A stretch of DNA of 64,000 nt from Xestospongia bergquistia. Taxonomy: Eukaryota; Porifera; Demospongiae; Haplosclerida; Petrosiidae. Positions 4,134 through 64,000 of the stretch are shown here, piece by piece. The translations under genes and the position numbers were made by a program. The stretch lies in assembly GCA_963965975.1 (NCBI GenBank), contig OZ014423.1:5916301-5980300 (forward strand). The letters are read 5' to 3'. The notes beneath the pieces were generated by a model. The model was not told the DNA's origin and searched no databases. It saw only the letters and a list, made by a program, of their open reading frames with translations. Each line of letters opens with the position of its first letter. The first letter of the stretch is position 1.

Positions 4134-7100
4134 TCAGGGAAAGAATGCATCCTCTCCAGTGACATTGTAAGAGGTAGCATTAGTTGTGTCATTAGATTTG
4201 AAGATGAGATAGTCTAAATTGAGTGTAGATCTGTTGACTGTTTCACTAAATCTTAGAGTCAGCTGACCATTATCTAAATCAAAGTCAAAACCAGACAAAG
4301 ATGGTGGAGTGGTGTCTTCAACATAATCAGAAGCTTGAAGAGCATCATTTTGAGATATTTCATTGACTGAGTTCATGCTGGTGTCATTAATGGCATCTTT
4401 TGTGATGGCCAAGTAAGTCTTGGTTTTGTTAATAGCAAGTAATGGTCTTCTCTTTATTTCATTGAGGTCAGAATTATTGATGATCAATGATACGACGGTA
4501 TTTTCTATTCTAGTAACAGTTACATTGAGGTTTGTTAGTGTGTAGTGGGCACAAGAGTCATCAAGGAGTCTAGATGTAGTGTTTTGGAGACTGAAGGCAG
4601 TAGATACAAGAGTCCATGATAGCACAGACTCTGAGAAGGTAAGATTCATTGCTCCATTATCCATATCAAGTGTATAAGACACTAGAGTAGGACTAGTAGT
4701 ATCTGGTGTTAGAATACTAACAGAAATGGCTTCAGTGAGGTTCACCTGGACAACTGGGTTGCCACTGGTATCATGAATGCTTCCTTGATCAATGGCTAAA
4801 TATGTGTTAGTATCGTTAGTTGCTAAAAGTAACCTAGCTTTTAGTTCATTGAGATCTTCAACAGTTAGGTTCACTTCAATCCAGCTTTGTCTAACAGCAA
4901 TGACTGTTCCATTGTTAAGTCTATAGAATGAGGAAGCATTGCTAGAGTTCATACTGAGGAATGTTAGCCCTTCTGGTAATAGTGTTGTCTTATCAACTGC
5001 TTCAGTAAAGTTCAGTGTGATGATTCCCGAATCTAGATCCAAATGGAATTGGGCTAACTCTGGGTTTGTTGTATCTGAGATGAATTTATTAGTTTGAAGA
5101 GGATTGTCACTAGATATCATAAATAACATATTACCATTGTTGTCACTAACAGCTGTAGCATTAACGGTCAAATAGGTGTTGTTTGTGATATTATTGAGAC
5201 CTGATGCTAAGCTTGAGAGGAGTTTGATTTCATTCAGGTCATAGATAGAGAGTTGGATGATGATTTCAGGACCATCCATACTTACAACACTGCCTCCAGT
5301 GAGTTTATAGATGACACTGTCATTGGATACATTGCTGCTTTGTAAACGAAATCCTGTTACATCAATTTTAGAAGCATCAACAGTTTCTGTAAAAGTCAGA
5401 TGAATCTGGCCCTCATCTAAATCAAATAAGAACTCAATTAACATTGGTCGATGTATATCACCAATAACATTGCCAGCTTTCAGACTAGCATTGCCTGCTA
5501 TTGCTTCAACTGGTCTGCGTGATCGATCTCTTACAGCAAGATTGGTTAAAGCAAGGTAAGTGTTATCTGTTGATGTTCCAAGATCAGTGAGTTTCTTTAT
5601 TTCATTAAGATCATAATCACTCAATGTGATATTGATGATTGGCCCATGAGATGATGCTATGTCACTGAGATGGGATAGGGTATGATTTGACAAAGCATGA
5701 TCAATGGGTTCATTAAGAAGAGTTATTTGTGTAGTATTGAGGGAGTCAGCATCCACTGTTTCAGAGAATGTCAAGGTCAATAGTTCCAATGTTAGATCCA
5801 ATGTGAAGTTGACTAATGTTGGACTGGTTATGTCAGAGGTATACATGTTCACTTGTTCAGCAGAGACATCATTAATAATAGGTACAACTAAATTGTCACT
5901 CATGTCAAGGACAGTGTAGTTGTGTAATGTGAGCCATGTTGTGGTATTATCGAGGGCAATGCCCTCAGCTTTGATAGTATTCAGATCATCTGGAGTAAGT
6001 ACAAGAGTCAGAATAGTATCATCTTGTAGTGATAGTAGTTCTCCTCCAGTTAACTGATGTTGTTCTGATGGTATGGATGCAAATATAGTTGATTGGAGAG
6101 TTATTCCAGAGGCCTTGAAGCTGCTGGCATTCACTGTCTCAGAGAAAGTCAAGGTGATTTGACCTACATTCAAATCAAAGTCAAAAGATACTAATGTAGG
6201 ACTAGTGAAGTCAGCTGTAAAGTTAATGGCTTGGATTCCTGATATAGAGACTAGTGGATTACTATTCATGTCAATAATAAAGCCTTCCCCAAGATTGAGA
6301 TAAGCATTAGACATAGCTGTGTAGAGGCTAGTGTTTTGTTTGATTGTGTTCAAATCTTCTGGAGTAAGGAATAGTTTGAGTTGTGGGCCATTGGTACTGT
6401 TAATTATGAGGTCTTTAGGATCAAAGACAATGCTACCATTTGGTGCATTGAGGAATGTGAGCAGTGAAATATTAACAGAATTAGATTGTATTGCTTCATT
6501 GAAGTTTAGAGTAACTAGACCCTCATCTAAATCAAATAGGAACGTTTCTAATATGGGTAATAGTTGATCTGGATAGAACCCATCAGCAGGTAAAGTTTGT
6601 TCTTTGTTAACGACATTAGCCATATCCTTTATTGCTGAGTTTTCAATGACTAATTCAGTAGTCAACAGGTCAATTGCTAATGTGGTGTCTAGTTTGATGC
6701 GATTTAGGTCTTGTCGACTGAGAAAGATAGTTATGATGGTGGAATCATTTGTGGAGACATTGGATGTGTCTGTAAGTGTGACTGAAGTACTGTTAGTATC
6801 AGATTGTAAAGTGAATCTGGAGAGTATGAGAGTATTGTATGAGACAGTCTCATCAAATGTCAGTGTTAAATCATTAGTTGTTAGATTAAGAGTGAATGAA
6901 ACTAGTACTGGGCTGGTTGTATCTGGAATAAAAGTAGTTGCCAATTTAGCATCATCTGTTGGTATTTCTGTTAAGTTAAATCCAGCCATATCGTAGATAC
7001 CATCTGATAAGAAACTAATGTATGTGTTGTTATCTCTACTAGCCAGTCCTCTGATTTCTTTGAGGGCATTAAGGTCTTCAATAGTAATGTTCAATATTAC

Positions 7101-11800: not shown

Positions 11801-14800
11801 CCTTGAAGTTAGGAGGAGTTGTATCGTCTGTATAGTTCTGTACTTGTATAGCCATGTCAATATTTATCTCTATGACTGCATTAGGAGTAAAAGCAGTATC
11901 AGTGATAGTAGTTGAACTCATTGCTAAGTATGTGTTGTTGAAATTCTTAGCAAAGATGGAGGCTTTCAGAGCATTGACATCTTCTTCTGAAAGATTGACG
12001 ACTATTTCTGGTCCATCAGGACTGTTAGTTTCACCTCCAGTCAAAGTGTAATAATAGGCAGAGTGTGTAATGTTAGAAGATGCTTGTATTGTAATGCCAG
12101 TTGGCTCCAAAGACTCTGCACTGACTGGTTCATTGAATGTGAGAGTCAAAGTATTTGTGTTCATATTCAGAGAGAAGTTAGTAAATTGTGGTTCAATACT
12201 ATCTGTTCCATAAAACATCACAGGATAACCTGGAAATTCTGGAACAACTGGTACAATAGAGTTGCCTACCATGTCCTCTACTAAGTCTGAAGTGAAAGAG
12301 ATGTAGCAATTTCCTCTATAAGTACAGAGATAGTTGTTGGCTTTAATAGTTGCAACATCATTAGATTGGAGGTAGAAATCAATGATGTTCTTGTCTGGGT
12401 CATTAGTATAACCTCCACTTAATGTGATATTAGCAAGGAGAGGATTGAAAATGTCTATCAAGGTGATGGTAGTGAAGTTAAATGAAGTGACATTCACTGT
12501 CTCAGAAAAAGAGAGTCTGATGATTTTTTCGTTTAGTTTGATAGATGTAAACTCTTTTAGTTCTGGTCTGGTTTGGTCATTAATAAAATTGTCAACTTGT
12601 ACTCCTTGTCCATTTGGTATGGCATCAATTGGCATATTGACCATGTCTAAAACAGCTGATTCCTCTAAAGTAAGGTAACAATTTGGTTTGGAATAGCAAA
12701 ATGTTTTGCGTTTGATCTCATTCAGATCATAGACACTGAGAGTGATTTCAACATCAGCAGCAGCATCATTCTGCTGTATGCTTGTAGTCAGAGTATGAGA
12801 TGATTCAGAGACAGTGATATTGTCCTGTAAAGTGAAATTAGATATTATTAATGTGCTGACATCAACTGTTTCATTAAAGTGTAGTGTCAGCAAGCCCTTG
12901 TTCATATCCAAATCAAAGGATAGCAAAGAAGGACGATCTAGATCAGGACCATATATGGAGACAGATAATGCTTTGTCTTTTATGATTTCTTTTACTGAGT
13001 TGCCTGCATGGTCAGAAATGAGTTTGGGTAAGACACTGAAGAATATTGTTTCATTTGAAGTAGCCAACATGTCAAGAGCTTTGATGCCATTCTTATCAAA
13101 GATGGTTAGCTCAAAGACAATAATTGTGCTATCATTGGACAGCAAGTAGCCATCAGTGAGTGCATAAGACTCTGCTGGAGTTGATGATTGATTGCTGATA
13201 AGTATAATACCTGATGGGTTGAGAGATGATGCATTGACAGTTTCTGAGAAGAGCAATGAGACCCTTCGAGTGGCCAAACTGAAATTGAAAGCTAAGAGTT
13301 CTGGTTTTGTAGTGTCAGAAATATATGAGTGAACTTGTTTTGCTGAAGTATTGTAGATTGGTAGTGCATCATTTTCAGCTACGTCATTAATGACATTTAC
13401 CTCTAATGAAATAAATGTTGTATTCTTATTAGTAGCAAGAAGTGTCAGTCTCTTTATTTCATTGAGTTCATTTGTAGATAGAACCACTTTCATTACTCGA
13501 CTACTAATCTGGGTGTATGAGCTTTCATTAAGTGTTAGAGTTTCAACTGAGTTGTTTCGTTGATTTTGTAGAGTGATTAGATCAAGAACAAATGATGAAT
13601 TGGTTATGTTTTCAGAGAATGTGAGCAATACAGTTCCTGAATCTAAGTCAAATAGGAACATGGTTAAGAATGGAGGTACAAGATCAGCAGTGTTGTTACT
13701 GGCATGTTGTGCTGGGAATGTAATGGGAACTACAGCTAATCCAGCCATGTCTGTTATTGCATCCTCTGTAATAGCAAGGTAGGTTGTGTTTGTATAGTGG
13801 CCAAGAGGAGGTCTCACTCGAATGGACTCTAAGTCAGAATTGTTAACTGTGATAGTTACAATTGTAGAATTGTGAAGACTAACGATTCCACTAGTCAATG
13901 TAAAAGAGGCTTCATCAGTGGTAGCATTGGCAGTAACTCTGATTGTGAATTGTTTAGGATCAAGAGAGTTAACATTAACTGTCTCAGAGAAAGTAAGAAT
14001 TATTAGCAAAGGTGGAACAGTATCTGCCATGTCTAGTCTGTAAGAGACTAGAATTGGTTTAGTAGTATCTTTTGAATATTTTTTAACTGGAAGTGGGTCT
14101 GTAATTGTCCCAACAGCATTACCTGATGTATCAGAAATCAAATCAGAAGTGATAGTGAGGAATGTGTTATTGGCATTTGTAGCAAGACTAGTCAATCTCT
14201 TGACTTCATTCAGGTCATCAGTAGAAATGGTCACAATTATTACTGGACCATCTGCTGAGGTTGTATAGGAGGTATTGGTCAAAGAGAACAAAGGCTGGAC
14301 TTCATTGTGAAGTGTAATCTGTGTAGCAGTCAATGTAGTGGAATTGACTGTTTCGCTGAAAGAGAGAGTAATCTCTCCTGCATCTAAATCAAAGTCAAAA
14401 CTTAACAAAACTGGTGCTTTGTTATCATCTGTAAAGTTGCTGACTTGTATTGCCTTTGTGATCTCTATTTCACTGACTGGATTGAAGTTCATATCAAAGA
14501 TTGTAGTATTGTCAAGTATGATATAAGTGTTGGATGTTCCAGTGAATAAGTTAGTCTCATTCTTGATAAAGTTAGCATCTTCAAAACTCAGAGTGAATGT
14601 CACAATATCTCTGTCATCACTAGTTAAATTGCCTCCTGTTAGTTGTCTTTGTGAAATGTACATACTTTGTCCACCTACTAAGGTAATGCCAGTTAAATTG
14701 AGTTCGAGAATACTGACTGTCTCAGAGAAGTACAAGGTCATGAGATCATTGGTGAGGTTAACATCAAAACTACGCAGTATTGGTCTTGTTGTATCCTCTG

Positions 14801-17800
14801 TATAGCAATCTGCTTTAACAGCATAAGCTTCAGTGGAAGTGATCTCTGCTATAGGATTGTCAGCGTTATCATGCAGCATGCCTTTTCCCCATCCAATGTA
14901 GGTAGAAGTGGCAGATACAGCCAGTGATCTGCGTCTTTTTACTTCATTGGCATCAACATGTGTTAGATATATGACTACAGTAGTGTCATTTAGGGAGGAT
15001 ATATTGCCTCCAGTGAGCATGTATTCTGAGTCAGGTGTAAGGTCTGTTGAACTGAACAGAATGAGTCTCGATGGTATTACAGATGTAACATTGATTGTCT
15101 CTGAGAATCGCAGTACAAGATATGGTGATCCATCCATATCTAGACAATAATCAAGTAACTCAGGTGGTATGATGTCCTCTTTAAGATCATAGGCCATTTG
15201 GGCATAGGAGTTATTAATAGGGACAATGGGATTGCCAGCCATGTCAGAGACAGTGAATGGCAGGAAAGAAATATAGGTATCATTGACACTGTTGCCAAGT
15301 TTTGTCATGGCTTTAAGGTTATCAGTGTCGTATTTTGTTAGTGTCACAGTGATAGTGACTCCAGTAAAGTTAGGTGAGAGAATACCACCTGTTAATGTGT
15401 AGTTCTCTGAGGCTTTTGATATGTTAGGGTAGTTTTGTAAAGTGATCTGATCCAACTTAAGGGAGGTGACATTAATAGCTTCACTAAAGACCAGTGTTAG
15501 AGTGCCACGATCAATAGAATCAACTTCCACATTCAAATTGATGGAGAATCGTATCAGTGTAGGATCAGTTCTATCAGTAGTGTAATTATGAGTCTGAATA
15601 GCCTCATCAAGATTAATAGCATTGAGAGCATTGTTAGCTACATCTTTGGCAGTGGACGACTGCAAAGAAATGAAGGTATTATTTCTGTTAGTTGCGAGGT
15701 AAGGCATCATTTTGAGTTGGTCAAGGTCAGTTTTGATGATGTTCACTACAATCTCATATCCATCTGCACTTGTTGAAGTACCTCCATTTAAAGTGTAACG
15801 ACTGGAAGGATCTGTAGCTCTTTCATTTTGGATGGTGATGTGCTGAGGTTGTAAAGTCTCTCTATCAATGACATCATCAAATGTCAGTATGAGGAGAGCG
15901 CTATCCATATCTAGAGTGAAGTTTAGGAGATTTGGTCGAGTGGTATCTCCAATGTAAGTAACTGCTTGAACAGGTGCATTAGAGGGGATACCAACAACAA
16001 GATTTTCAGCTTTATCTTGGATTGCTCCTTCAAAGAAAGACAAATAGGAAGTATCTTTGTTAATTGCTAGTTGTTGTAAGAGCTTAATAGAACGATAGTC
16101 TTCAGCACTGAGAATAATTTCAAGAATTTCATGAGTGGATGATGCATATCGAGTGCTACCACCAGTAAGATCAAATGTACCATCTCCAGACATGTTGCTA
16201 TGCATTGAGAAGTTTGTGAAGACAATGGTATCAGAGTCAACAGGTTCAGAGAAAGACAGAGTAATAATACCTTCATTCATATCAAGCTGAGTGTAAGCAT
16301 TTAACTCTGGTACAGTGTTATCTGGCACAAATATATTAACTTGTAATGAATTATTGGCAAAGATTGGAACAACAGGATTACCTATATTGTCTTCATTCAA
16401 GTACATATCGTCAACTAAACCTGATGTGATAGTAATGTAGGTTGAATTCTTTCCAGTAGCAAGGAGCTCTTCAGCTTTCAATCTGTATACATCAGCTGGT
16501 GATATAGTAAATTTCATGTATGGTAAATGAGCTTGAGTATGGAGTAGTTCACTGACAATGTTGTTCAAAGTAACTTTAACTGTAGTGTTTGTTTCAGTAG
16601 CTGTATTCTGGAATGTGATGTATCTCACTTCAAAGGTTGTATATCTAACAGTTTCATCAAAATAAAGGGTTATGTTTTCATACGTAAGATCTAAATCAAA
16701 ATGAATAAGTTTAGGTCTTGTGGTGTCTTTAGTGAGATTAAAAAGTTGTGAATTAGGCCTAATAACAGGCTCATCTAGTACTGCAGCAACTGGATTGCCA
16801 AAGGTATCATTAGCAAATGTACTGGTGAGTCGAATAAAACAGTCTGATGGACCATTAGTACATAATTCATCAAGAGCTTTAATTGCATTTAAGTCGTCAT
16901 TGGTGAGTGAGATATTAACATATGTGTTGTCTTCGCTGAGTACTTCACCACCTGTAAGTTGAACTTTGTACTCAAAAGAGCCAACAAAATCTTGAAGGGA
17001 AATGGCTGTAGGGTCTATGGTTGATGCATCAATGGTTTCTTCAAATCTGAGTGTCAAGAGACCATTGTCCAAATCAAATTGAACAAATTCTTCAAGAGTT
17101 GTAGGAGTGGTATCTGGAATATAGTCATCAGCCATGTGTGGTTGTGCTGAAGTAATTTCTATTATTTTATTCCCAGACATGTCTGCAACAAAGTTACTAT
17201 CAAAGGCAATGAAACAGGTTGATGCATTTGTGCACATTGGTAATCTAGTAACTTCATCTCGGTCAACTTTATGGAAGGTAACATGAAGGACATCAGTGTA
17301 ATCTGGGCTGTATTCACCTCCAATAAGATTATAGCTCAAAGTTGAGTCTGCTTCTTTGAACAGAGTTATGGCAGTAAGGTCTACTGATGTGGTGTTGATG
17401 GTCTCAGAAAATGAGAGAGTGAAGTTGCCATTATCAAAGTCAATAACAAAGGATACCAAATAGGGTAGTGTAGTGTCTTTAGTCAAACTAGCAACAGGTT
17501 TAGCAGATGTTGGATCAATTGGAATTAAGAGATTATCATTTCTGTCTTCAGCTGCAGTTGCCTCAATGGAAAGGTAAGTATCATTGTTACCTGTGGCAAG
17601 GTCATCAATTGCTTTGACTGCATTGAGGTCGGAGAGACTGAGATTAACAGTCACTACAGAGAAGCTGGTTCTGACATAGCTACTGGATTCAGTTATAGTA
17701 AATTCTGACGTAGAACTAACTGGATTGTTATGCAGTGTGATATCAGTTATGTTGATTGTGTCTGGATTAACAGTCTCAGAGAAGAAGAGAGTGAGTTCTC

Positions 17801-44800: not shown

Positions 44801-47800
44801 CTGACAAGTATGTGTTCATGACCATGTCTCCAAAGTTAGTAGAGAACTGTTTAAGGATAGGAATAGGTAATCTAAGCTCGGCAATTTGTGAAATATCGTT
44901 GCTGACAAACTGACTATCAGTGAGGGATACTGTGGTTGTCAGTCCTAGATTGACATTCTGTTTGTTATGAAGTCTTATTTCATTTACATCAAAGTTAGGT
45001 ATGTTCACTACTTCATTAAATGTTAAAAGAAGTGCACCACGATCTCTATCAAGAACAAATTGTAGTAATTCAGGCCTTTTACCATCAGGTACAAAGGTGG
45101 ATACCTTACGGCCATCACCATCTTGAACTGGAACAAGATTATTAAGTGAAGTATCTTGAATAACAGATGATGAGAGTGTCACATAAGTATTAGCTGCAGA
45201 TGTAGCTACTCCAGTATTCTTTTTAATGCCATTAAGATCTGTTGTAGAGAGTGTGATGCTCAATGAAGCTCCTGATATGGCAATACTTCCTCCAGTCAAT
45301 CTATATGTTTTGCCAGGAGTAGCTGTTGGTAAATTCTGTAGAAGAATACCTGATATGTTAACTGAACCATCTAAAATGAAGTCTGTGAAAGTAAAAGTCA
45401 TAATACCATCATCCATGTCCAATGTGAAAGACTGAAATTCTGGTGGAGCACTGTCAAATATGACATCAGTTGCTTTCAAAGCCTTTCCATTAGTTATAGC
45501 AGTATTGTCATCACCAGCTGGTCCATCAATTGTACTTGCTGTGATGGTAATGTAAGTGTTGTCTCTGACAGTACCAAATTGAGAGTTTTCTCTGATTGGT
45601 AAAGCATCTGAATTCAAATTCACTTCTACTACATAGCCATAAGAAGATGAAGTTTGACTGGCTGTAGTAAGACTGTAGAATGCATTTGGTGAGCGGAATG
45701 GTTGATCTTGAATAGTTATCCCAGTTGGGTCAAAAGTTAATGGATCAACTACATCGGAGAATGTTAGTGTTAGTTTACCTGTTTCAAGATTAAGAACAAA
45801 AGATTTAAGCAGAGGAGCTGTTGTGTCATCAATAAACCCAGATGCTTTGAGTAATGATATAGGCACAAATGTGTTATCTGCAACATCTGTGAATGCATTG
45901 TCAGAAATTGAGAGGAATGTATCATCAATGCTAGAGGCAATGTTTGCTAGTGACTTCAAGGCAGTGATATCAGATGGGTCAAGTTTCACAGTAATAGTTA
46001 CAACTGATCCAATGGACACAGCAGTGACATTACCATTAGAGAGGGACACAGAAGGAGTTCCACCAGCTCCTGTGAAACTAAATTTAGTGAAGTCAATAAG
46101 ATTTGTTTTAATTGGCTCATTGAATGTAAGAATAAAGTTGTCATCATTTAAATTGAAGCTAAATCCTGACAAAGATGGTGCTGATCTGTCTTGTTCAAAT
46201 ATTTCCACTTGTAGTGCTTGATCTGTTGGTATATTTGTCACACTATTTGGTACTAGAGCAAGATCTGAGGTTGTGGTGGATTTCATAGAAAGGTAAGTAT
46301 TACTTTGGTCTGTGACAAATCCTGAGTTTTTGATAAGATTGAGATCTTCATTTGATAGGTCAACAACAATTATGTTTCCAGCTGAACTCTTGGTAGCACT
46401 TGATGTGAGAATGATGCCATCAGTGGCATTCATACTGCTTTGGAGAGAAATTCCAGTAACATTGAAACCTATTCCAGAGACAGGCTCCGAGAATGTGAGA
46501 TGAATCTGACCTTCATCTAGATTTAGAGTGAAATTCAAAAGTCTTGGTGAAATGTCATCATAAATAAATTCATTAACAAGAACTCCAGTTATAACTTCTT
46601 GAATAGCATTGCCAGTAACATCAGAGAAAGAACTAGAAGTCAGAGTAATATAGCAGTTTCCTCTTGATGTACAGAGGTAGGGATTCAATCGAATAGCAGC
46701 CATATCATCAGATGTTAGAGTTATGGTGACAGTAATGTTATTGTCAGATATAGAGCCAGCAGTCAGACTGTATCTGCTTACATCATTACCAGAATCAAAT
46801 AGGTTTTGGAGAGTGATTCCTGAGGCATTAAAGGAAGAGGTATCAATGGTTTCTGAGAATGTTATGGTCAAAGTACCAGCTGCCCTGTTGAATTGAGCAA
46901 ATGTTTCAAGAACTGGAGATGTTGTATCTTGAGTCAGAGAAACTGGAAGACCTATTGTTAAATTGAGTGATGGTTCACCAAATGTGTCTCTGAAGGCATC
47001 ATTGTCATGAGTTATGAAGCAGTTAAATGCATTTGTACATATCTCCAGTGCTTTAATATTATTAAGGTCATCTTCGCTAATTCCTATAACCATATTGACA
47101 AAGTTATTGATTCTGTTAAGCGAACTGGATTGCAATGTGTAGAAGGATATAGGGTTGACAGAAGAAGATTGGAGTGTGAATGCTGCTGCAGTGACAGAGC
47201 TTTCTTGAACAGGCTCACTGCCAACAATAGTAAGAATGCCTTGATTCATATCAAGTTGTGCTTCAGATAAAGATGGTGGTTGAGTGTCTGGAATAACTTG
47301 ACTGGCTTGTATAGCACTAGTGATTGGTACACCAACCAAGCTATCACCATTAGAATCCAAAACAGCTCCACTTGTTACACTGAGATATGTGTTTTCAATC
47401 ACAGTAGCAATGGCTGGTTGTTGTTGCAGTTCACTTTTGTCAGTTAGATTAAGAGTGAGTTCTAAAACAGCTCCTGCAGCAGGAGTTATGGCAATTGGTT
47501 GTCTGAATTTGAAGCTTACAGCACTAACTGCAGGTGCACTCAGCAAAGTAAATTGCTCAATTCTGAGTGTTGATGCTAATACTGTTTCAGAGAAAGTCAA
47601 AATAAGTGGATCATTAGAGCTGAGACTTAACTCAAAACCAAGCAAAGTTGGTCTTTCTACATTTGCAGTGAAGTTTTGGGCTTGTAATGCACTACTAGAT
47701 AATATAGGAAGAACTGCAAGATCATCAGAGTCTAGCATTACTCCTCTCTTCAAGGAGAGATAAGTACTATCTCTGTCAATGGCTAATATTGCATCAGCTT

Positions 47801-50800
47801 GTATTGAATTGACATCATCTGATGACAATATCACAAGTATGGTTACGTTGTTGATGGTTGTGGCATTACCAGAAGTTAGAGTATAAGAACTACCACTTCC
47901 AGTTCCTGTGCTTTGTAGTGTGATAGTTTGTGGATCAAAAGAGTTCAATGATACTGATTCAGAGAATGTCATTGCCATTGTTCCAGTATTTAAATTAAGA
48001 ATGAAGCCATTAAGCTGAGGAGGAGTGATGTCTCCAGGCTCATTGGAAGCAATCTGAGCATCAGAGTTTGGTACTGCAACAACAGAATTCCCTTGCATGT
48101 CACTGGCAAATGTATCTGGGAAGGATATATATGTTGTGTCTCTTGTTCTAGCTAATTGATCGAGTAATGGGTCTGTCAGAATAAAAAGAAGTTCATTGTC
48201 ATTTATAGGAATGTGGATTACATTGCTATGAATTAGAAGTGGAGAAGTGGAGACAAATGTATAAGTTTGTACATCAACATTGATGCTAGCAGCAGATTGT
48301 AAAGTCAGCTGTGTTGGTGTGACAGAAAAGGCATTGATTACTTCAGTAAAGGTAAGAGAGAGAGTGACACGACCATCATGGTTGCCAAAAGTAAATGAGA
48401 TAAGTTCAGGTTTTACAGAGTCTGGAGTGAATTGGTTCACCTGCTTAGCTGAGCCATTTACAATAGGAGAGTTGTAGTTGTCATACAAGTCTTGAATAAG
48501 AGTATCATCGATGACGATGTAAGTATTTGTATTTGATGTTGCTGTGTAAGGGGTGGCCTTGATTCCACTCAGATCTTCTGCAGTTAGATTTACTTGTATG
48601 GTGGTGGTATTCACTTGGCTTGATGATGAAAGTGAAGATAACGTGAAAGAATTAATGCTTGAAGATCCATTTTGTATTGTAATTGCCGAAGAGGAAACTG
48701 TCTTTCCTTTAATTGCTTCTGAGAACACAAGGGTAAGGATTCCATCATTCATGTCTAGATTGAACGTGTTTAAAGATGGAGGTGTTTGGTCTGGAACAAA
48801 AACATTGACAGAAAGGGCATCTTCTCCACTTACAGCTTCTATCTTGTTACCAAATATATCTGAGATGAGTTCTTCAGTGAAGGTGATGTATGTGTTGTTT
48901 CTTCCATTAAGGTTTTCAATCAAAGCAGCTGCTTGATCATTGTTGAGCGTTATGATAATGATGATAACAACAGTTGTGGTGTTGTCCACTGTATAGCCTG
49001 TCACAGAAAATTGAGACTGTGGCTCAGTAGAAGAGTTTGTGATAGTTATAACTGTAGCATCAAGAGTACTAGAGTCAACAGGTTCATTGAAACTGAGTCT
49101 TATTTCTCCCGCATCAAGATCTAATGTGAGGAATGAAATGGCAGGAGCAGATGTATCTGGTACTACTTCAACAGCAATAGCACTTCCATTGAATGCTCCA
49201 GGAAGAGGATGGTTATTGCTGTCATAAGTGATACCGTCATTGAAAATAGCAAATGTTGAACCATTCAAACCAAGAAAAGAATGAACCTTAAGTGCATTGA
49301 TATCACTTCTTATAAGTTGTAAGGTAATCAGGTCTGTTAGATTATTAAGTGTAGTAACAGGTACTTGCTTCAGTTCTGAGAAGGTATATAAGTCATTCAA
49401 AGTGTAGATGGTATTAGCTGTTTGTAAAGCAATACTGGTTAAGTTGAATGATTCAGCATCAATAACTTCTGAAAAAGATATCCTTATTTCACCACTATCT
49501 AGATCCAAAATGAACTTGCTCACAGCTGGAGCTAAAAGATCACCTTCAAAGTTTGTTGCATCAAGAGCTTCCATGGCAGAAATTGGGTTAACAGCACTTC
49601 CACCAAAGTCAGCAATAGCAGTACTTCTAATTACTAAATAGATGTTATGAATACCAGTTGCCAGGTCCATCATTTGCTTTAGCTTGTTCAAGTCATAGTT
49701 AGTCAGAAGTATATCAAGCTGATACAAGGAGTGAGAAGATTGTTCTGCAATACCTCCAGTTAGAGTAACACTCATAAAACTGAGACCTGTTGCATTAGGT
49801 GAGTTCTGAAGTGTTATTCCTGAAGCATTGAGGGAAGCTGGATCAAGCGGCTCATTTGACAATATACTTAAGATGCCAGTAGTGAGGTTGAAGGTAAATG
49901 CTGTAATATTTGGTGAGGTAGAATCAGTAACAAAGCTTGTTGCTTTTATAGCAGGTATAGTAGTGGCAGTAACAGAAGATCCATCACTAGCTAGTGTAAC
50001 TGTGTTGTCTGCTGCAATATAAGTGTCATCAATATTGGTTGCCAAACCAATTCTGTGCTTGAGACGAATGAGATCATAGTCAGTAATTGTTGCTGTAATG
50101 ACAAACCCAAGTGACAAGGTTGAGATACTCACACCACCAGTCAAAGGGTATGTCTCACTGGGTGTTGTCATGTGATTTTGGATAGTTATACCCAAAGGAT
50201 TATAGACCATAGGACGAATGATGTCATCATAGGTAAGTAAAAGCAGCCCTGCCTCCATGTTGATCTCGAACTCTTTAAGCCTGGGAGGTTGAGTGTCTAG
50301 ATGGAAAAATGTAGGTTGAACTGGTACAGTCAGACCAGCAACTGGACTTCCAGCAGTATCATAGAATGTATTGTTACTGAAGTAAAGGAAAGTACTGCTC
50401 TTATCAGCTCCTACAATAACTGAGCCATTCTTAAGAGTGAACTGATCATTGAGTGAGAGTGTAATAATGAGATTTCTGGGATCAGCTGGGTCTAAATCTG
50501 CTGTAGCATCTGATATGTTGAGAATATCTCCACCATCAACTGCAGATTGAATAATGATGGAAGAATAATCAATTGATAGAATGCTAATAGGCTCAGAAAA
50601 CTTCAGAGTTAGTGTGGCAGTTTCTCTATTAAATGTTTGGAATGTCTCAAATGTTGGAGTTGTTGTGTCATCTTCAAATGAAGATACTAAAAGAGGATTA
50701 ACACCATCTGTTCTCATTTGTGCTGTGTTGCCAAATATGTCAGATATCAAGGATCCATCATTTGTGAGGAATGTAGTAGCAGGTGAAACAGCAATGAAAG

Positions 50801-53800
50801 GGTCTCCTTTGATAGAGAGACGATCTATATTAGTTAAAGTGATAGTGACTACTGTTCCAGAAATAGAAGTGCTTGAAGACCCTGTAAGTGTATATGTTGA
50901 TGTTGCTGAGTAAGCATCTTGAAAAGTAAGGCCAGTTGGATCAAAAGTAGAAGCATCAAAGCTTTCATCAAATGTAAGTCTAACGAAGCCTGATTCCAAC
51001 AGAAGATCAAACGCTGTCACAATAGGTCCAGTAGCATCTGATATTAGTATCAATGGATAATGCTTTGAATTGGATTCTATGGTGTTACTTATAGCTGATA
51101 TGTTGTTTCCAAATGCATCTGATACAAATCCAGCTGGGAAACGAATGTAACAGTCAGTTCGCCTGGTACAAAGATTATCATTGAGTTTTTCTTGCTTAAG
51201 TGCATTCAAATCTGTCATTGAGAATCCTATTTCGATCTCATTACTGCTTCCACTTGTAACTGTACCACCAGAAAGTGTGTACATTGTAAAATCAACACCC
51301 TCTCCATTAGGATTATTCTGAAGTCTAAGCTGTGAGAACTGAATGGATGTGGCATCAACAGTCTCAGAGAAATTGAGCACAATTTTTCCGGAATCAAAGT
51401 CCATTGCAACAAATTGTTCAAATATAGGTGGCTGAATATCTTCAGTGAAATTAGCTGCTTGAAGATTTGATAGTGGTAGAACTGGATTGCCAGCTGTGTC
51501 TGACACATATCCATTTTGTCCTACTAGAAAGCAATCTTCAATAGAGGTACATATAGCAAGAGCATTCAGTTGATCAACATCACTATCAGAAAGTGTAATC
51601 ACTAGAGTGCGACCAGTTCTCATAGTATTAACAGGTACACTAAATGTGAAGTTGGATGTAGACCCACTTGCATTATGAACAGATAAAAGGCTCATATCAA
51701 GACTGGTTGGATCAACAACTTCGTTAAAAGTGATTGTGATGGTGTATCTGTGAAGATCAATGGAGAAGGAGGTTGTATTTGGTCTAATTTGATCATAAAT
51801 ATATATGCTAGCTTTCTGAGCATTGTTGATGGAAATGGCAGGAGCTAGATTACTGAGGACATCTTCGGCCACTGAAGGCATAAGAGAAATGTAAGTATTG
51901 TTTATACCAGTTGCTAATTGAGATCTGATGTTCAATTCATCAATGTCAACATTGTTGAGTGTGATCACAACAACAGAGTAATTGTATAGTTGATAGTCAG
52001 TGGATGTAATTGCAACGTATTGAATAGCATCCTGTTCTGCATTCTGGAGCATTATAAGTGATGTATTAAAGGTTCCTTGTTTAATTGTTTCAGCAAATGT
52101 TAATGTCAATTCTCCATTGTTTAAGTCTAGTTTGAATGAGTTCAACTGTGGTCCCGAATTATCAACAACAACATTGTCAGCTTTTCTTGGTGAGCTGATA
52201 GCAACTGCACTGTTTCCACCATAGTCAATAGCAGTGCTTCCAAGAATGGTGATGTAGGTGTTGTTAGAATCTGATCCAAAAGTCATTGCTGCTCTGAGTG
52301 GATTCAAATCATCAAGACCAAGCTGTATAACAACTAAGCTAGCACTGTCACTAATAACATCACTAGAAGGTGAGAGTGGGAATGCTGGAGTTAGAAGTGA
52401 ACTGTTGTGGAGTGTAATTCTTGTGACATCAAAAAGATCAACATGTATAGCTTCAGAATAGGTAAGCAATAACTGTCCCGTATTCATGTTGACTTCATAG
52501 CTTTCCAATGTAGGTACTGAAGTATCTGCAACAACATTATATGCAGGTACAGCCTCATGAACTGACATGATGGCATTACCAAACATATCTTCAACAGCTC
52601 CATAGCTAACGTTTAAGAAGGTATTGGTAACATTTGTTCCAAGGAAGATATTTGAACGCAAAGCATCAAAGTCTGCAGTTCCTAATGTAAAGGTGATGGT
52701 TCGAGAATTATCAGGTGATGTTGTGGTTACATTGCTGAGAGGGACGTTGTAGTGAGCAAATGCTAATGATTCTTGGAAAGAAAATAAGTCTAGTTGAAGA
52801 GTGTTTACTCTTATAACTTCACTGAAAGTTAAGATAAGAGAACCATCAGTGAGATCAAGAATGAAAGATGAAAGAATAGGACTTGTAATGTCTGGAATTA
52901 CCTCACTAGCTTGCTTAGGATCGGTGTTAGGAATTTCAGCCATTCCATTCATTCCAGGTACAACATCAATTGCAGCATCAGCAGCAGCACTGAGGTAAGT
53001 GTTACCAGTTTCAGTAGCAAAGTTTTCATTTTGCTGCAGTGTATCAAGCACCAGATCATGAAGACTCACAGTTATGACTCTTGAATTTTCAGTGTTTAAA
53101 ACTTCAGAAGAAACTGAAAGCCCTATATTGATTGCGTTGTCAGCATTTTGTAGTGTTAATCGATCTGGAAGTACAGTTGTATACAGAACTATCTCAGAGA
53201 ATGTAAGTATAAGGGTACCCTCATCTAAGTCAAGTGTGAAGGAGTCAATTTCAGGTTTTTTGGCATCAGATGTTAATGTAATGACTTGTTTGGTGACAGT
53301 TGTTAGACGATTACCAAATGCATCAGTTGCAAAGCTGCTTGTTAGAGAAATGTATGTTGATGTTTCTGATACAGCAAGACTTGGGTTATTCTTGATAGTA
53401 TCAAGAGTGTCATTGGATAGCCTAATGGAGATTTCCGGCCCATTCATTGATAAAATGTCACCTCCATTTAAGACAACTGTATGTGTTGGGTCAACACTGT
53501 TTTCCTGGATAGTTGCTTGATCCAATTCAATAGAACGTGTCAGGATGGTTTCACCAAAGAACAAACGAATTTGTCCATTATCTAAATCAAGTTGAAGAAA
53601 ACTATCCAATTCAGGTGCTTGTGTATCAGCTATAACATCTGATGCTTGGACTGGTTCAGGGCTAGTAACAATACCACCCAAGCTATCTACAAAGCTTCCA
53701 TTTCCCAAAAATATGAAAGTATCAATGATAGAATTTCCAATTTTTTCTTCAGCTTTAAGACCATTAAGGTCATTGGGGGATAATGTGAGGAGAACTGCTA

Positions 53801-56800
53801 AACCTGATTCTTTAGTAGCAGCCATACCACCAGACAATGGGAATGTAACTGAACCAGTAGCATCTTGAAGTGAAATATATGAAGGATTGTAAGAACCTGC
53901 ATCAACAGCTTGATTGAATGAAAGAGTTAGCTCTCCAGAGTCCATGTCAAGGGTGAACGAAGCTAGTTGGGTACCATTACCTCCACCAATAAAATCAGTA
54001 GCTTTCAAGCCATTTCCATTTGTAATAGGAATGATACTGTTACCATAGAAGTCTTTGACTGTGTTAGAAGTGAGAGTGATAAAAGTGTTGTCAACTCTTG
54101 TTGCTAAGCCAGGAGTAGCTGTTAAACCAAAACGATCACTGGCAGATAGTGTGACTTCAAGCACAAGCCCATTTGAACTGTCTGTAATGCTACCAGATGA
54201 TAATGTAATGCTGGCATTTCCACTAGCATCTGCAGCATCTTGAATGGTAATACCAGAAGCATTGAAAGTGGATACATTAGCAATATCATCAAAAGTAAGT
54301 GTAAGAAGACCATTAAAAATATCTAGAGTAAATGATGACAGTGCTATAGCTTTTGTATCAGATGTATAAGCATCTACTTGTCTTCTTGATATAGGCAAGA
54401 GAGATTGTCCACCTGTGTCTTGCACTGCAATACTAGATACAGATAGGTAAGAATCATCAATAGAAGTTGCAATAGTTCCATTATATTTGAAGCTGAGTAA
54501 GTCATTACTGGAAAAGTAAATGGTTACAATTGTTTTTTGCTGTTTAGATGTAATAGTACCATCAGTTAAAGTGTATGACACACCATTGACCTCTGATGAG
54601 TGTAAAGTAAAGCCCAATACAATCAGATTATCTGTATCAATAGGTTCAGAGAAAGTTAGCAGAAAAGCATTTTGGCTCATGTCTAAGTGAACAGAATCAA
54701 GAGTTGGTGCTAAAGTGTCTTGTGTGTAGTCATTGACACCTTTTCCAGTTACTTGTTGAGCACTGTTGCCAGTAGGAGAGAGATCAATGACAGTTGTAGC
54801 ATCAATAGTAATGAAAGTAGTGGTTTTGTCTTTAGCAAAAGATGAGGCCTTGATGGCATTAATGTCTGTAGAAGTGAGATTGAGGACTACTACATTGCTG
54901 AAAAGGGCTGAAGACCGAGTACCTCCAGTGAGACGATAACTAGGAATACCACTTGAGCTGCCAGCTATGGATATACCACTAGGATTAAATTCACGATTGT
55001 CAACAATTTCATCAAAAGTTAAAGTAAGAATACCAGTGTTCATATCCAAATCAAAAGACTCTAACAGAGGACCTATGTTGTCACCAACAAAGTTCTGTGC
55101 TAGCAGTCCAGTTGTTACAGGTAATACATTGTTGTCAAACATGTCCGAGATGGCATTAGATGTAATTGTTATGTAGCATGTGCCTTTTCTGGCACACAAG
55201 AAGGCGTTTTGTTTCAGATCAATAGCATCAGCTGTTGATAATGTAATAGTGATGGTGGTTGTGCTGCTGGAAATAGTTCCACCAGTCAGTACCTTTGTGT
55301 CTTCAGGAGACTCATAAAATGACTGCAAAGTGATACCACCAAAATTAAGAGAAGATGCATTTACTGTTTCTGAGAAATTAAGAGTAAGTTCAGCTCTAGA
55401 TAAATCAAATGATGCAAATGTTAGCAGTGTTGGGTTAGTTGTGTCTGAAGTGTATCCTATGACTTTGATGCCATTGTTAGCATGACGGGAGATGACATTA
55501 TTACCAAAAGCATCAGTTACTAATGTTGAAGAATATGAAATGTAACAAGATTCAATCTCCAAACATATCTCCCTAAGTTTAATAGTGTTAAGATCTGTCT
55601 CTCCAATTTCTATCTCTAACACATTAGAAGGTGTACTGATAGCAATGCTGTTAGTTAGAGGATAGTTAGCAGTAGCACTAGCAAAAGCATTCTGGAAAGT
55701 TAACTGGTCATCTCTAAAAGAGTTTGGATTGATAACTTCATCAAAACTGAGGATTAGTCTACCAGCATCCATGTCAATATCAAATCTGACAAGATTTGGC
55801 ATTATGGTGTCCTCACCAACGCTGGCAGCTTGTTTTGCATTTTCAGCAGTAATAGGAGTAATGTTGTGGTCATACAAATCTTTAACTAAGGTGCTAGGGA
55901 AGGAGATGAAGGTGTTGTTTACAGAAAGACCAAGATTGATCATGCTTGAAAGATTGAAATAGTCAGCATAAGTTAAGTTGATATGAATGCTTGAAGAGTC
56001 AATATTAATATAGTTTCCTCCGGTGAGTGTGTACAACTCAGTGGAACCATTGGCAGCATTTTGCAATGTTATCACAGATGCATTGAATGTAGCAATGGCA
56101 ATGGTCTCTGAGAAGCTGAGAATGAGAGTTTGGGTATCAAGATTGAAATTAAACAGGATCAATTCTGGAGCAGAAGTATCAGGTATAAATTCAGAAACTT
56201 GTTTAGCTTTTGTTGACAGGATAGGAACAACAGGATTGTTAGCAACATCACTAATAGCAGAGGCAGTCAAAGAAAGGTATGTGTCATTGATGGATGTTGC
56301 AAGAAGTGAGTTACGATTGATCTTGTCAAAGTCTGTTGGTATTAATGTTATAATCAATTTATTTCCAGATGCCTCTACTGTGTCTACTCCTCCACTGAGC
56401 ACTAAAGCTACTGAACTATCATTGGCAGAATTTTGAAGTGTGATTTGAGAAGCATTATAAGTATTTGGATCTACTTGTTCATCAAATGTAAGAATGATTT
56501 GTCCCTCATCAAGGTCAAATGTGAAGAATTCAAATTGTGGAGAGGTCAGATCAACTGAATGTTTCTTGGCTTGTAGTCCATTCTCATTTGAAATAGCTAT
56601 TAGTGGGAAGCCTAGTATGTCTTCGACACCATCAGATGTGACAGATATAAAAGTAGAGTTGATTGTTTTGGCAAGCAGTTTAAAAGTCTGAATAATGTTG
56701 AAGTCAGAATTGGTAATATTGACTTGCACAATGGTGGCATCAGCACGAATGAAATTTCCACCAGTTAAGGTGTAATTCTCTCCTATACCGTTTGCTGATT

Positions 56801-59800
56801 CCTGCAGTGTAAAGGCTGTTGTATTGAGTGTTTCGATGTCAACAACTTCAGAAAATTCAAAAATTAGAACTGCTCCTGGTCTGTCTCCAGCTGCCAAGTA
56901 GCTAAAGGCAACTAATTTGGGATTAGCTGTGTCTGGGACAACATTTGTTGCTCCACGAGGTGAAGCTGGATCTATTCCAATAAAATTGTTTCCAGCACCA
57001 TCTTCAAATACAAGTGGAGTAATTACAATGAAAGTATCAGAAGTATCAGTTGCAATAGAATTATTTATTTTGAGGAATTTTGCATCAGCATCAGAAAGAG
57101 AAATGACAAGATCTGTTCCTATAAGATCTATAGTGCCACCAGTTAATTGATATGTAACAGTAGGTGACACATCATTGTTGACCAAAGTAATAAATGATAA
57201 GTTTACAGTCTGAAGGTTGATAGGTTCATTCAGATCCAATGTTAGTTTGCTGGTATTAAGGTCCAATGTAAATTCATTTAGTAATGTGGATTGTGAATCT
57301 GGTGTAAATACTGACACTTGAAGTGCATTTTGTTTTGAAATAGCAGATAGTTCATTGAAGTAGATGTCAGTAGCTCCTCCTAATTGGACGCTAAGATATG
57401 TGTTGTTTCTGTCAGTAGCAATATTAAGATTTAATTTCAGCGCATTTAAATCAGTTTGGTTAAGAGATAAAATGATTGTAGTATTGTCAAAGTTGGTGAT
57501 GGGTTGAATACCCAGTGCCAATGATAAACTCTCATTTGGGCTATTTGATTGTTCACTTTGAAGTGTGAATAATGGTCCATTGATTGATGAAGGAACGACA
57601 TGCTCATTAAAATGGAGGTATAAAGTACTTGAATCAATATCAAGATCAAATCCAATAAGACTGGGTGGTGTTCCATCAACAAAGAATGAGCCTGCTTTCA
57701 GTGCTTGATTAGAAGAAATGGCCTCAGCTGGAATGTTTTCAGTATCCTGTATAACACCAGAAGAGAGAGATATGTATGTATCATCAACTGAGCGGGCAAT
57801 GTCATCATTCAAACTAAGTGTATTAATGTCTTCATCAAGAATAATAACATCAATCACTTGTCCATTAGTGCTGTTGAGTGTACCTCCATTCAAAGCTACT
57901 GATACTGTAGTTAATGCTATAGTAGGACCATTCTGTATTGTGATAGCATTGGGATTGATAGTTGCGGCCAGCACTGTCTCATCAAATGTCAAACTTAATC
58001 GACCATTGTTGAGATCCAGAGAGAAGTTTGTTAGCTTAGGAGGTGTAATGTCTGGTAGATGATCAAAGGCTTGTAGTGCATTAGATGAAAGAAGTGGTTG
58101 TAGGAGAAGACCAGCCATGTCTTCAATGGTCTCATTAGATGCAATAAGGAAGGTGTTATTCTTAGTGATACCCAGATTCAGAATACTTTTAATTCTTTCT
58201 AAGTCTTCCTTCAATAAAGTAATATCAAAACTGATGGCTGGATCTGTTGAGCTAATGCTACCACCTGATAATGTCACTGTTTGTGTAGCATTATTAAATT
58301 TAGAGTTCTGAAATGCAATTCCATTAATGTTCAAGCTTGAGACATTCACAACTTCAGAGAAAGTGAGAGACAGGAGTCCAGAGTCAATGTCTAGAGTATA
58401 AAAGTTGAGTTGTGGATTGGTTGTATCATCAGTAAAATTTGATGCTTGTAATGCATCATTGGATGATATAGAAGTAATAGGTAGAGTACCAGGTTCCTTG
58501 AATGCAGACGAATCAAATGATAAGAAAGTTGAGTTTATTGATGTAGCAAGAAGCTTGTTTGCTTGAACAGCACTCAGATCTGTCTGTGATAATTGGAATT
58601 CAAACTCAAATGCACTCTCTGTGGACAATATTATTGTTGTAGTGAGATCATAGAAGCCTCCTGATTCAGAATTATCAACTGTACTCTGCAGGGTAACACC
58701 TGTAGGCTGAAATTGAGTAATATCTACTACATCAGTGAATGTGAGTCTGAATATGCCAGAATCAAGGTCAAATGTGAATGAATTCAGTTCTCCTGATTGG
58801 AAGTCTTGAACAAATGTTTGCACAAGTTTGGCATTAGTAGACAGAACTGGTGTCAGATAATTACCAGAGACATCACGCATGGCCAGTGATGTTGCAGTAA
58901 TGTAGGTAGTGGGCTTAGATTGGGCAATTGTGTCAGAAGTTTTGATAGCAATAATGTCGTTCTTACTGAGACTAATTTGGACTCTTGTTTTGTCTCCACC
59001 TACATAAGTAGCATTACCACTGGTGAGTGTAACATTATCCCCACCATTTATTTCACTTTGTAGAGTGAATTGGTTGTATCTAATTGAAGTGATATCTACA
59101 GGCTCATTGAATTGTAATTCTAATATATTTGAGCCAAGATTTAAAGAAGTGAAAGTAGACAGTTGAACATCCATCATATCAGGTGAAAAAGAGGCAGCCT
59201 GAGTAGCATTGACACCATTTATTAATGATGCACTGCTTGTACCAAACACATCTAATACAAATCCCGCCTGTATTGTTAGATAGGTGTTTGATTTGTTTGT
59301 TGCAAGACCTTCAGTTGATTTCAGTGTGTTAAGATCGTTACTTAAAAGTCGAACGTTCACAATAACAACAGTACCAGATACAAGGATAGTACCACCAGAA
59401 AGTGTGAGGCTAATATTTGATGTAGAATCATTTTGGATGGTAATGAATGTACGTTGAAGACTGCTTGAAATAACTGGTTCATTGAAAGTGAAGCTGAGTT
59501 CACCAGAGTTCATGTCCAGGCTGAAATATTTGACAACAGGACCAGTTGTATCATCAACAGTGGAATCAGCTCGTAATATAATAGTATCAACAGGATTGTT
59601 GTTCATGTCAAGAATAGCTCCTTCTGCTAAGTTAAGGTAACAGTTGGACAAAGTGGTACAGATTTTGTTGTTCTGTTTAATTGCAGTAAGATCGTCACTG
59701 TTGAGCTCTACAATGATTTCTGTACCATCTTGACTGCTGGTAATACCTCCTGTTAATGTTTGAGTAACAGATAAAGGAACAAAATCTTGTATAGAAGAGC

Positions 59801-62800
59801 CTGTTAGATTAAGAGAAGAAGCACGAACTGTCTCTGAAAATTGTAGGGTCATAGTTCCAGCATTAAGGTCAAGAACTACAAATGCTTCTAACATTGGATT
59901 GACAGTGTCTTCTCCATACTGATCAATAATCAAAGCATCACCATCTTCTCTAGGTATCACTTTATTGTTGCTATAGTCACTGACTAAATCTTCAGTAAAG
60001 ACTATGTAGCAGTCTGAGATATTTGTGCAGAGATCAAGTCTAAATATCTCATTTAGATCAGGTTCGGTCAGTGTGATGTTTATTGCTGATGCAATGGTTG
60101 AATGACGTGAAACAATTCCACCAGTGAGGTTGTACTTTGCATCTGTAGCTATTAAACTATCTTGAAGTCTTAACTCTGATAGAAACACAGTATTGGGATC
60201 AACTGACTCATTGAAGAACAACTCAAGAATGCCAGTTGTGAGGTTAATGTGGAACATAGTTATTTCGGGTTTGTTTGTGTCAGGGATGATATTTGTTGGG
60301 TTTAGGGAATCTGAAACAGGTATTAGTTTATTTCCATTGCCTGATACATCACTAATGGCATTCTCCAGCAGTCGTAGATAAATAATCTTGCTAGAAATGA
60401 TTTTGACTGTATTTAGATCTGTTGATTCAAGAGTGATGGTCAATTCTGTGATGGAATCAGAGGCAGAAGTGTCTGCCATTAGTAGCACAGAGAACACAAT
60501 ATCTGACATGTTATTTGAATCAGATATTTGTACTGATCTTGCATCAAATGTACTGCTGTTGATAGGTTCATCAAATGTCAGATTGAGGACACCATTGTCT
60601 AGATCAATTACATATTCTCTCAGAATTGGTGGTAACTCATCAGGTGTAATAGTTGATGATTTTATTGGTGAGTCAAAGGTGATTTCTTTAATGCCATTCT
60701 CAAATGTGTCAAATATTGTAGCATTTGGAACAACCAAATATGTATTGTTGACATTGGTTCCCAAATCTGGTGTATCTTTAAGGAAGTTAATGTCATCCTC
60801 TAGGAGTTTAATTGTGACAATATCACCAAATATGTTTGCAGATATATTTCCACCTGTAAGCGTTAGAATTTCAGTTGGGTCAACGATGCCAGGTGCTGGA
60901 GTAATAGATAGTTTTGTCACATTAAGTGAGTCAATATCCACAGCTTCAGTGAACATTAAAATCAGCTCTGAGGTGTTCAAATTAAGCTGGAACTCTTTTA
61001 GAGATGGAGGAGTAGTATCAGGAAATAATGCCCCAGCTGACAATCCTTGCAAAAATTCCATAATATTGTTTCGACTGATGTCTTGGATAGCACCTTCATT
61101 CATGAAAATAAATGTACTTGATGTATCATCAGCCAAGTTCTCAGCAAATTTGATGGCATTAGCATCTTCCAAACTCAGTTGAATTTGAATGATTTCTAAA
61201 TCTATGGATCCTTCAACTACTGAGCTAGTTGAGATAACATATGAAGATGTTGGGGCAACTGGTAGGTTTTGTAAAGTAATGAGTGTTACATTTAGACTGT
61301 CAACTGACATGATCTCATCGAATGTAAGAGACAGTATAGCAGTACCTAAATCCAGAGTAAAGTTAAGCAAGATCGGTGCTGCATTATCAACAATAACATT
61401 TATTGCTTGAAGAGCATCATCTGGTTGTACAGGGGTAACTGTATTGTTTGATAAGTCTTCTATTCCATATGCTGTTATAGAGAGGAATGTTTGATTGACA
61501 GTCTGTCCAAGGGTTAGCGATCGTTTGATTTGGTTTAGGTTAGCCAGAGTGAGAGAGATATTCAAAACATCGGAATTGGTTTGATTAAATGGAGTGCTAC
61601 CAATGATAATGCTGTCATCAACATTACTGATATTTCTTGCATCTTGTAATGTTAGTGCAGAGATATTAATGGAATTTGTAAGAACAACTTCTGAGAATGT
61701 CAATGATAAAACATTGGCATCAAGATCTAAAATGAAGGATGAAAGCTCAGGAGATGTGGTGTCTGGAATAAAGGTGTCAACTCTAAGTCCTGAATCAGAT
61801 CGTATTTGTACAATGCTATTACCTGCAAGGTCAGCAACAGCAGATGAAAAGAGAGTGAGGTAAGTATTGGTTGCACTGGTAGCTAAGTTAGTTAGTAACT
61901 TGATGGCATTAAGATCAGTTAAAGAGAGTTTAAGTGACACTGAGTAATGGTCAATGTCAAGATTCCCTCTAGTCAATGTGTGTTTAATGAGACTCGAAGT
62001 TTCTGTTGACTGAAGAACAATTTGAGATGCATTAAAGGATTCAGCATTGATCGTCTCTGAGAAAGTGAAGTTGAGGAGACCGGTGTCCATGTCCAAAGAA
62101 AATGAGGTAAGTGTTGGATTGGTAGTGTCAGCAATGACATCAGATACCTTAAATGCATCAGTATCTGTTACAGCTATCACTGGATTACCGAAAAAGTCAA
62201 GAACAGCATTACCATTTAACACAACATATGTGTTATTTGGAGAGGACCCAAAGTTGTCTGTAGTCCGCAGGATATGCATATCATTAATTGTGAGTGAAAG
62301 AGATAGAGTGTGACTATCTACAGAGGCTACTACTGAGCCTTGAGATAAAGTGAGAGTCTCTACAGTGAAATTGGAAATATTTGAAATGTTCATTATATTT
62401 TGTAGAGTAATAAACCCAAAGTTCAAACTGTCAGCACTAACAGTATCATCAAATGTAAGATTGAGTTTATCATTCTTCAAGTCAAGGATTGCATCTGTGA
62501 GTTGTGGATTAGCTGTATCAGGGATTAATTTTGTGACTTGACGTGCCTTACCATCAGTGATAGATCGGACATCATTGCCAAGATAGTCGTCAATATAATC
62601 AGCTCTCATCAGGAGGTAAGTGTTAGATTTGTTCTTTGCAAGGCCTTCAATTGAATTGAGACCAAGCACATCCAAATCAGAAAGACGGATATCAACCACA
62701 TGTCCGCTAGGACTAGTAGAGACACTATCAGATGATAGTGTGAAGATTTTCTCTTGATTAGCAGTCTTGCTGCTTTGAATGCGAAGGGAAGGTGAATTCT

Positions 62801-64000: not shown

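Follow-up and report, generated by a model that had tools for sequence, protein, structure and literature searches.

A single gene of the sponge Xestospongia bergquistia, here called gene A, probably encodes a secreted filament in which 335 beta-sandwich domains follow one another in tandem (about 41,540 residues, about 4.5 MDa) and which grew by the copying of blocks of 23 domains. The window, that is the whole stretch of 64,000 nucleotides under analysis, corresponds to bases 5,916,301-5,980,300 of contig C13 (OZ014423.1), within an assembly of 146 Mb in 21 contigs. A reading frame ending at the window edge was considered and rejected: the frame is open beyond the right edge, and the array of domains extends to about window coordinate 128,000. 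On the minus strand, window coordinates 4137-128798 give 41,554 codons with neither a stop nor an N, where base composition would lead one to expect 2,602 stops. The other five frames of the same stretch contain 1,244-5,264 stops, and their longest open runs do not exceed 266 codons. A 264-codon antisense frame within gene A (window 60388-61182, plus strand) is probably a by-product of codon use, since the matching frame is generally stop-poor (1,244 stops). At the 5′ end of the gene, an ATG opens a hydrophobic start, which is followed by a 223-base intron with a GTGAGT donor and an AG acceptor, and all these parts join in frame; the splice sites and the signal peptide were assigned by eye. 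Including this likely signal-peptide exon, the product has about 41,558 residues, and it is acidic, with a pI of 4.07. TRF detected no DNA tandem repeats in the coding part of gene A, and Rfam gave no match within the window. A scan for bacterial-type promoters at window 3300-4300, which is uninformative for animal DNA, returned 6 sites against 6.2 expected. No description of the protein was found in open PMC papers, and an automated annotation may exist. The exon and its neighbour within the window are the following:

4134-64000, minus strand: the portion of gene A's giant exon that lies in the window (the full exon, stop codon included, spans 4134-128767 and measures 124,634 bases)
1-3322, minus strand: DIP2-like gene (DMAP_binding exon, 44.1 bits against a cut-off of 27), starting about 0.8 kb past the gene A stop
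1940-2331: 56-bp tandem repeat in an intron of the DIP2-like gene, 7 copies, 92% matches (TRF)

When cut with a profile built from its own sequence, gene A yields 335 domains, 334 of them above 15 bits, with a median length of 124 residues (range 115-142). How regular is their order? The mean pair scores at lags of 23, 46, 69, 92 and 115 domains are 148.2, 144.1, 142.4, 138.5 and 138.6, against a baseline of 109.1 (sd 7.4) across lags 1-129. Likeness at a fixed spacing thus exceeds that between neighbours at lag 23 and its multiples, and the tree and the register agree; periods of 22, 24 or others were rejected by the lag test and the tree, in which only 23 and 46 stand out. The unit is also repeated without gain or loss of domains. 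When windows of 11 domains are slid along the array, the 23 register scores highest in 52 of 55 (the exceptions being the first and the last two), and no slip occurs between about domains 6 and 322, the register failing at both ends. The signal carried by a single domain is faint: the best partner lies at a multiple of 23 for 149 of the 335. Profiles blind to cysteine and to a domain's own unit nevertheless assign the correct phase to 158 of the 335, against 7-22 in 20 shuffles. The preliminary description had claimed a strict 23-domain repeat over the whole of 4134-64000; this stands for domains A175-A322 and fails for the last 12 domains, at window 4137-8507. The lengths that it gave for five complete super-units were reproduced exactly, counting from the domain type that it labelled B1:

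8508-63665, minus strand: domains A175-A322, the complete in-window domains that hold the 23 register (register test)
47307-55829, minus strand: super-unit A196-A218, 2841 residues
38823-47306, minus strand: super-unit A219-A241, 2828 residues
30219-38822, minus strand: super-unit A242-A264, 2868 residues
21600-30218, minus strand: super-unit A265-A287, 2873 residues
12963-21599, minus strand: super-unit A288-A310, 2879 residues
4137-8507, minus strand: C-terminal tail A323-A334, outside the 23 register
4137-4334, minus strand: A334, the final domain, of which only the first half (66 residues, profile columns 2-61) precedes the stop codon

Each half of the block opens with two domains bearing a C-x5-C pair in a loop, which is probably a disulphide staple. 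Counted from the right edge of the window, the cysteine-pair domains are numbers 11, 12, 23, 24, 34, 35, 46, 47, 57, 58, 69, 70, 80, 81, 92, 93, 103, 104, 115, 116, 126, 127, 138 and 139. They include all twelve places at which the first description had put its types A1 (11, 34, 57, 80, 103 and 126) and B1 (23, 46, 69, 92, 115 and 138). Over the core of the array (A006-A321, n = 316), the C91/C97 pair occupies 54 of the 54 places of phases 0, 1, 12 and 13, and only one of the 262 other domains, A146. A322/A323 are without the pair due there, and A324 has one. Beyond the window, domain A134 has cysteines at columns 60, 66, 72 and 77 and is unique within its phase. The cysteine-pair domains of the window are these:

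59571-60299, minus strand: A184/A185, phases 0/1
55101-55829, minus strand: A196/A197, phases 12/13
51057-51812, minus strand: A207/A208, phases 0/1
46578-47306, minus strand: A219/A220, phases 12/13
42519-43250, minus strand: A230/A231, phases 0/1
38085-38822, minus strand: A242/A243, phases 12/13
34002-34748, minus strand: A253/A254, phases 0/1
29475-30218, minus strand: A265/A266, phases 12/13
25383-26126, minus strand: A276/A277, phases 0/1
20865-21599, minus strand: A288/A289, phases 12/13
16746-17495, minus strand: A299/A300, phases 0/1
12222-12962, minus strand: A311/A312, phases 12/13

Trees of the domains point the same way. It had been predicted that domain n would group with domain n+23, and in the tree of A175-A322 (148 domains) the phase labels indeed fit with 94 changes, where shuffled labels require 124.2 ± 2.6; for A006-A322 (317 domains) the figures are 171 and 264.7 ± 3.6. 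Among 17 assumed periods tried on the tree, 23 and its double 46 alone stand out, and labelling by unit gives no clustering (255 changes against 247.7 ± 3.9 shuffled). Clustering with immediate neighbours, the outcome named in advance as contrary, is seen in a single one of 113 sister pairs, and 39 of the 113 are separated by a multiple of 23. Short tandem duplication of single domains was rejected, since neighbours do not group in the tree. Copies in the same position do share variants, as had been noticed: D31, D107, D113, T118 and G120 in phase 16, P32 in phases 3/15, and R94 in phase 13. In-phase likeness at lags of 23, 46, 69 and further, phase-specific residues and the cysteine ladder are what the copying of 23-domain blocks would produce, so the view that the protein grew by duplicating such blocks, not single domains, is upheld with two refinements, which concern half-blocks and age.

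As for age, the 13 complete units compared in register show 29-34% identity, 31.1% on average; out of register the average is 27.5% and the maximum 29.2%. Their tree is star-like, with terminal branches of 0.84-1.07 and internal ones of 0.05-0.11, and identity is flat with distance (31.0-32.5% in sampled pairs from lag 23 to lag 299). From the low identity, the shape of the tree and this flatness, the blocks seem to have been copied in an old burst and not homogenised since; the order of duplication is not recoverable from units so diverged in a star-like tree. As for half-blocks, phases 0, 1, 3, 4 and 5 resemble phases 12, 13, 15, 16 and 17 (centred scores 32, 44, 11, 19 and 4, those for phases 0, 1, 12 and 13 including their cysteines), and phases 2 and 6-10 are unlike their counterparts in the other half. 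These resemblances support a 23-block made of two related halves of 12 + 11 domains, in which half-block copying would have preceded block copying. A half-block may be pictured as a conserved head of about six domains, the cysteine pair coming first, with five or six more domains behind it as a freer spacer.

What kind of domain is this? Among the 25 of 29 families listed for a scan of 90 domains, no Pfam family other than Big_5 (PF13205) was matched by two or more members; 6 of 44 members match Big_5 at E <= 1, and 15 of the 90 at E <= 0.1, the best at 5.6e-5. The consensus of the gene A domain reaches 19.4 bits against Big_5, below the curated cut-off of 23.6, with consensus positions 22-115 aligned on profile positions 22-96 of 105. 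A Big_5 scan of the genome gave four matches, two of them in gene A and none above the cut-off. Profile searches of solved structures found no match (best E 0.23 and 0.22), the best PHROGs match had an E of 0.22, and seven NCBIfam families matched one member each, with nothing repeated. Searches of phages, plasmids and IMG/VR found no relatives; none were found in bacterial and archaeal genomes with exact short peptide patterns, which are insensitive for so diverged a family. The domain shows alternating hydrophobic columns, and its D7, E31, D80 and D108 columns are acidic in 99, 97, 93 and 99% of 459 domains. We read it as a beta-sandwich family of its own, remotely like the Ig-type Big_5, in which the four nearly invariant acidic positions may be calcium sites.

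Gene A is not alone. A divergent neighbour, gene B, carries the same domain family, and the start codons of the two genes lie 893 bases apart on opposite strands. Its 128 profile hits amount to 127 domains, the first being a half: B056, taken as a 42-residue partial domain, was rejected as such and forms one domain with B057, which the profile had split because of a Ser-Gly insertion. Ser-Gly-rich insertions stand mid-domain in B057, B090, B097 and B109, with longer runs at residues 7083, 11246 and 12148 of the gene B frame. With the B056 piece dropped, the lag peaks of gene B fall at 36 (24.4), 18 (13.3), 72 (10.3), 54 (9.8), 95 (6.3) and 109 (5.8), for an sd of 5.1 across lags 1-109. Its cysteine pairs at B000, B024, B042, B061, B079 and B097 match the gene A head types 0, 12, 0, 12, 0 and 12; the first step is 24 domains and the last four are 18, and the next expected place is without a pair. 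Together, the lag peaks and the alternating heads indicate that the block of gene B is one of 18 + 18 domains, related to the 23-block of gene A. Within the genome, all listed matches of four protein searches, which scored the best 150 of 611, 150 of 529, 125 of 339 and 150 of 371 candidates, lie on C13 between 5.68 and 6.09 Mb, and the family frames among these matches have 41,554, 16,020, 13,759, 2,361 and 2,995 codons. In the 13,759-codon frame, cysteine-pair domains may recur about 31 domains apart, on hits picked among others of similar score. The 13,759- and 2,361-codon frames sum to 16,120, close to gene B. In the same genome, fibrillar-collagen C-terminal matches exceed their cut-offs and mark it as that of an animal, as do matches to the Wnt family; innexin matches are weak, passing only with neighbours in frame. 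The features of C13 outside the window are as follows:

6046226-6094276 (window coordinates 129926-177976), plus strand: gene B, encoding 16,016 residues with a hydrophobic start and lying head to head with gene A
directly after gene B: PRELI-family gene (50.0 bits against a cut-off of 27)
about 5682472-5719545, 5722484-5728363 and 5805869-5808250, minus strand: three more family frames (13,759, 2,361 and 2,995 codons)

Both products are probably secreted, as is argued by their hydrophobic starts and by an excess of sequons: 1007 in gene A against 749 ± 23 shuffled, and 474 in gene B against 279 ± 13.5. Serine and threonine are in excess only at position +2 from asparagine. In the column-95 loop, a sequon is present in 144 of 389 ordinary domains and in none of 70 cysteine-pair domains, an absence which is partly by construction because C97 replaces the threonine or serine of the sequon. 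The filament that we favour would then have arisen from a 23-domain block of two related halves, copied repeatedly, with the block order retained since. Calcium at the acidic positions might stiffen the chain, and if a domain spans about 4.75 nm as in the MpAFP repeat, the product of gene A would be a rod of about 1.6 micrometres with a repeat of about 110 nm. This would be an acidic, glycosylated rod whose periodic nodes are less glycosylated and disulphide-stapled, and the regularly spaced cysteine-pair domains might serve as sites of binding or cross-linking, in the manner of the titin ruler.

Could so long a frame be an assembly artefact, a contaminant or a dead gene? Its unusual length invites the question, but the 334 kb joined contain no N, the frame is never interrupted by a stop, and the units are too different to be assembly copies (29-34% identity). 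The contig also bears animal genes, namely the DMAP_binding and PRELI neighbours and, at 0.22 Mb from gene B, a Wnt gene, one of three places (C6, C9 and C13) where Wnt family matches exceed the cut-off, and we hold any such explanation to be extremely improbable. The register might also reflect selection on position, the domains converging to fixed roles without any block copying, and it is true that in-register identity exceeds the background by only a few percent (31.1 against 27.5%). Yet the exact spacing of 23 with no slip across about 316 domains, the phase-specific residues common to units at many columns, and the strict alternation of both cysteine-pair head types in the blocks of gene B are hard to obtain without common descent, and convergence of this kind seems quite unlikely. 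A different question is whether the product is a free structural filament or a cell-surface molecule of adhesion or recognition, membrane-tethered or proteoglycan-like. The N-glycosylation would suit the latter, as would the Ser-Gly runs of gene B, since runs of this kind are able to carry glycosaminoglycans. However, gene A ends in ...SYNVTGEDAFFP and gene B in ...GNPIQGCREL, neither with a hydrophobic tail, and the flanks are without a further coding exon of the domain family, which was the sole object of that search. A surface molecule is conceivable, if somewhat doubtful, and a secreted filament remains our preferred reading.

The ends of the two genes raise the matter of their history, which is compatible with such a filament and adds to it. 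A334 comprises only the front half of a domain, with 66 residues; the mature start of gene B, if cut before Q23, corresponds to a rear half of 60 residues (first aligned column 69), and their sum of 126 amounts to one domain. Genes A and B may once have formed a single gene of about 57,500 residues, until an inversion of the segment made of the promoter and A cut it within one domain. Such an event would explain both the split domain and the head-to-head order, leaving the broken end of A beside the DIP2-like gene and the broken start of B beside the promoter of A. The common domain family and the distance of 893 bases between the start codons agree with it, as does the absence of leftover domain pieces from the 14.1 kb past the A stop, the A-B gap and the 26 kb past B (best 4.7 bits), which is expected of a breakpoint and not of a nonsense change. 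Furthermore, B000/B001 are a cysteine pair, and in the joined chain they would be domains 334/335, which lie exactly 23 places beyond A311/A312. Against this, random halves would sum to within 115-142 in roughly one case in five, the content of B000-B005 suits phase 0 over the phase 12 due by strict counting (z 3.3 against 2.1), A323-A333 are out of register, and the next single cysteine pair (B010) and the following pair (B024) are off by one. We consider the inversion an even question. A bolder version makes the locus the relic of a chain gene of about 57,500 residues broken in this way, the half-domains of A and B pairing so that two secreted polypeptides form one rod about two micrometres long, along which cysteine-pair nodes recur at fixed intervals; this is speculative, and we give it little credence.

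Among known proteins, titin offers a close parallel in architecture. It contains six 7-domain and eleven 11-domain super-repeats, which are described as matching the 43 nm myosin spacing and setting filament length (PMC11040099), and its theoretical length is given as 38,138 residues, with a largest exon of 17,106 bp (PMC12198301). As in titin, a very long chain of domains, here probably beta-sandwich-like, is ordered in super-repeats, about fourteen 23-domain units in gene A and 18 + 18 domains in gene B. Unlike titin, gene A has a single exon of 124.6 kb and encodes 41,558 residues; titin is cytoplasmic and sarcomeric, whereas the hydrophobic start of gene A (by eye) and its excess of sequons suggest a place outside the cell. 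Among the matches listed for three stretches of gene A of about 2000 residues and 90 single domains (25 of 29 families listed), none to an Ig, FN3 or kinase family exceeded the cut-off, and the Pfam scans contained no cadherin or Calx-beta among the matches listed. Cadherins and sponge aggregation factors are, like the filament proposed for gene A, extracellular and acidic with repeated domains. The algal PKZILLA-1, with about 45,000 residues, is longer than the gene A product.

It is established that bacterial adhesins contain tandem Ig-like extender domains which calcium stiffens (PMC4083281, PMC7493085). MpAFP, with about 120 repeats of 104 residues, forms a calcium-stiffened rod of about 0.6 micrometre, and its four-repeat structure of about 190 Å is the source of the 4.75 nm per domain used above (PMC4083281). 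The extenders of RTX adhesins (MpAFP, MhLap and AhLap, as well as SiiE, PMC5466336) resemble gene A in their conserved acidic residues and in their long tandem arrays of domains, which in gene A are probably Ig-like. Contrary to gene A, whose repeats are about 30% identical, MpAFP has identical repeats, and RTX adhesins are exported by the type I route of Gram-negative bacteria, whereas gene A lies on an animal contig and has an intron and a hydrophobic start. Their calcium sits in the linkers between extenders; gene A shows conserved acidic positions, which may be calcium sites. What likens the domain to Big_5 is a recurrence of weak matches that cover most of its length; the consensus stays below the curated cut-off, and the domain differs by an extra DLN-x-IK segment and by the C-x5-C loop.

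By analogy with titin, we propose that the super-repeats of gene A may act as a ruler or in cross-linking. If expressed as read, gene A would give an animal protein exceeding the theoretical maximum of titin, encoded in one coding exon of 124.6 kb. It would also represent an ancient super-repeat whose count held over about 316 domains even as identity fell to about 31%, and a titin-like super-repeat order that evolved in another domain family, probably outside the cell. Since its neighbours in the cluster use other lengths, what fixes the length of a super-repeat would thus become testable.
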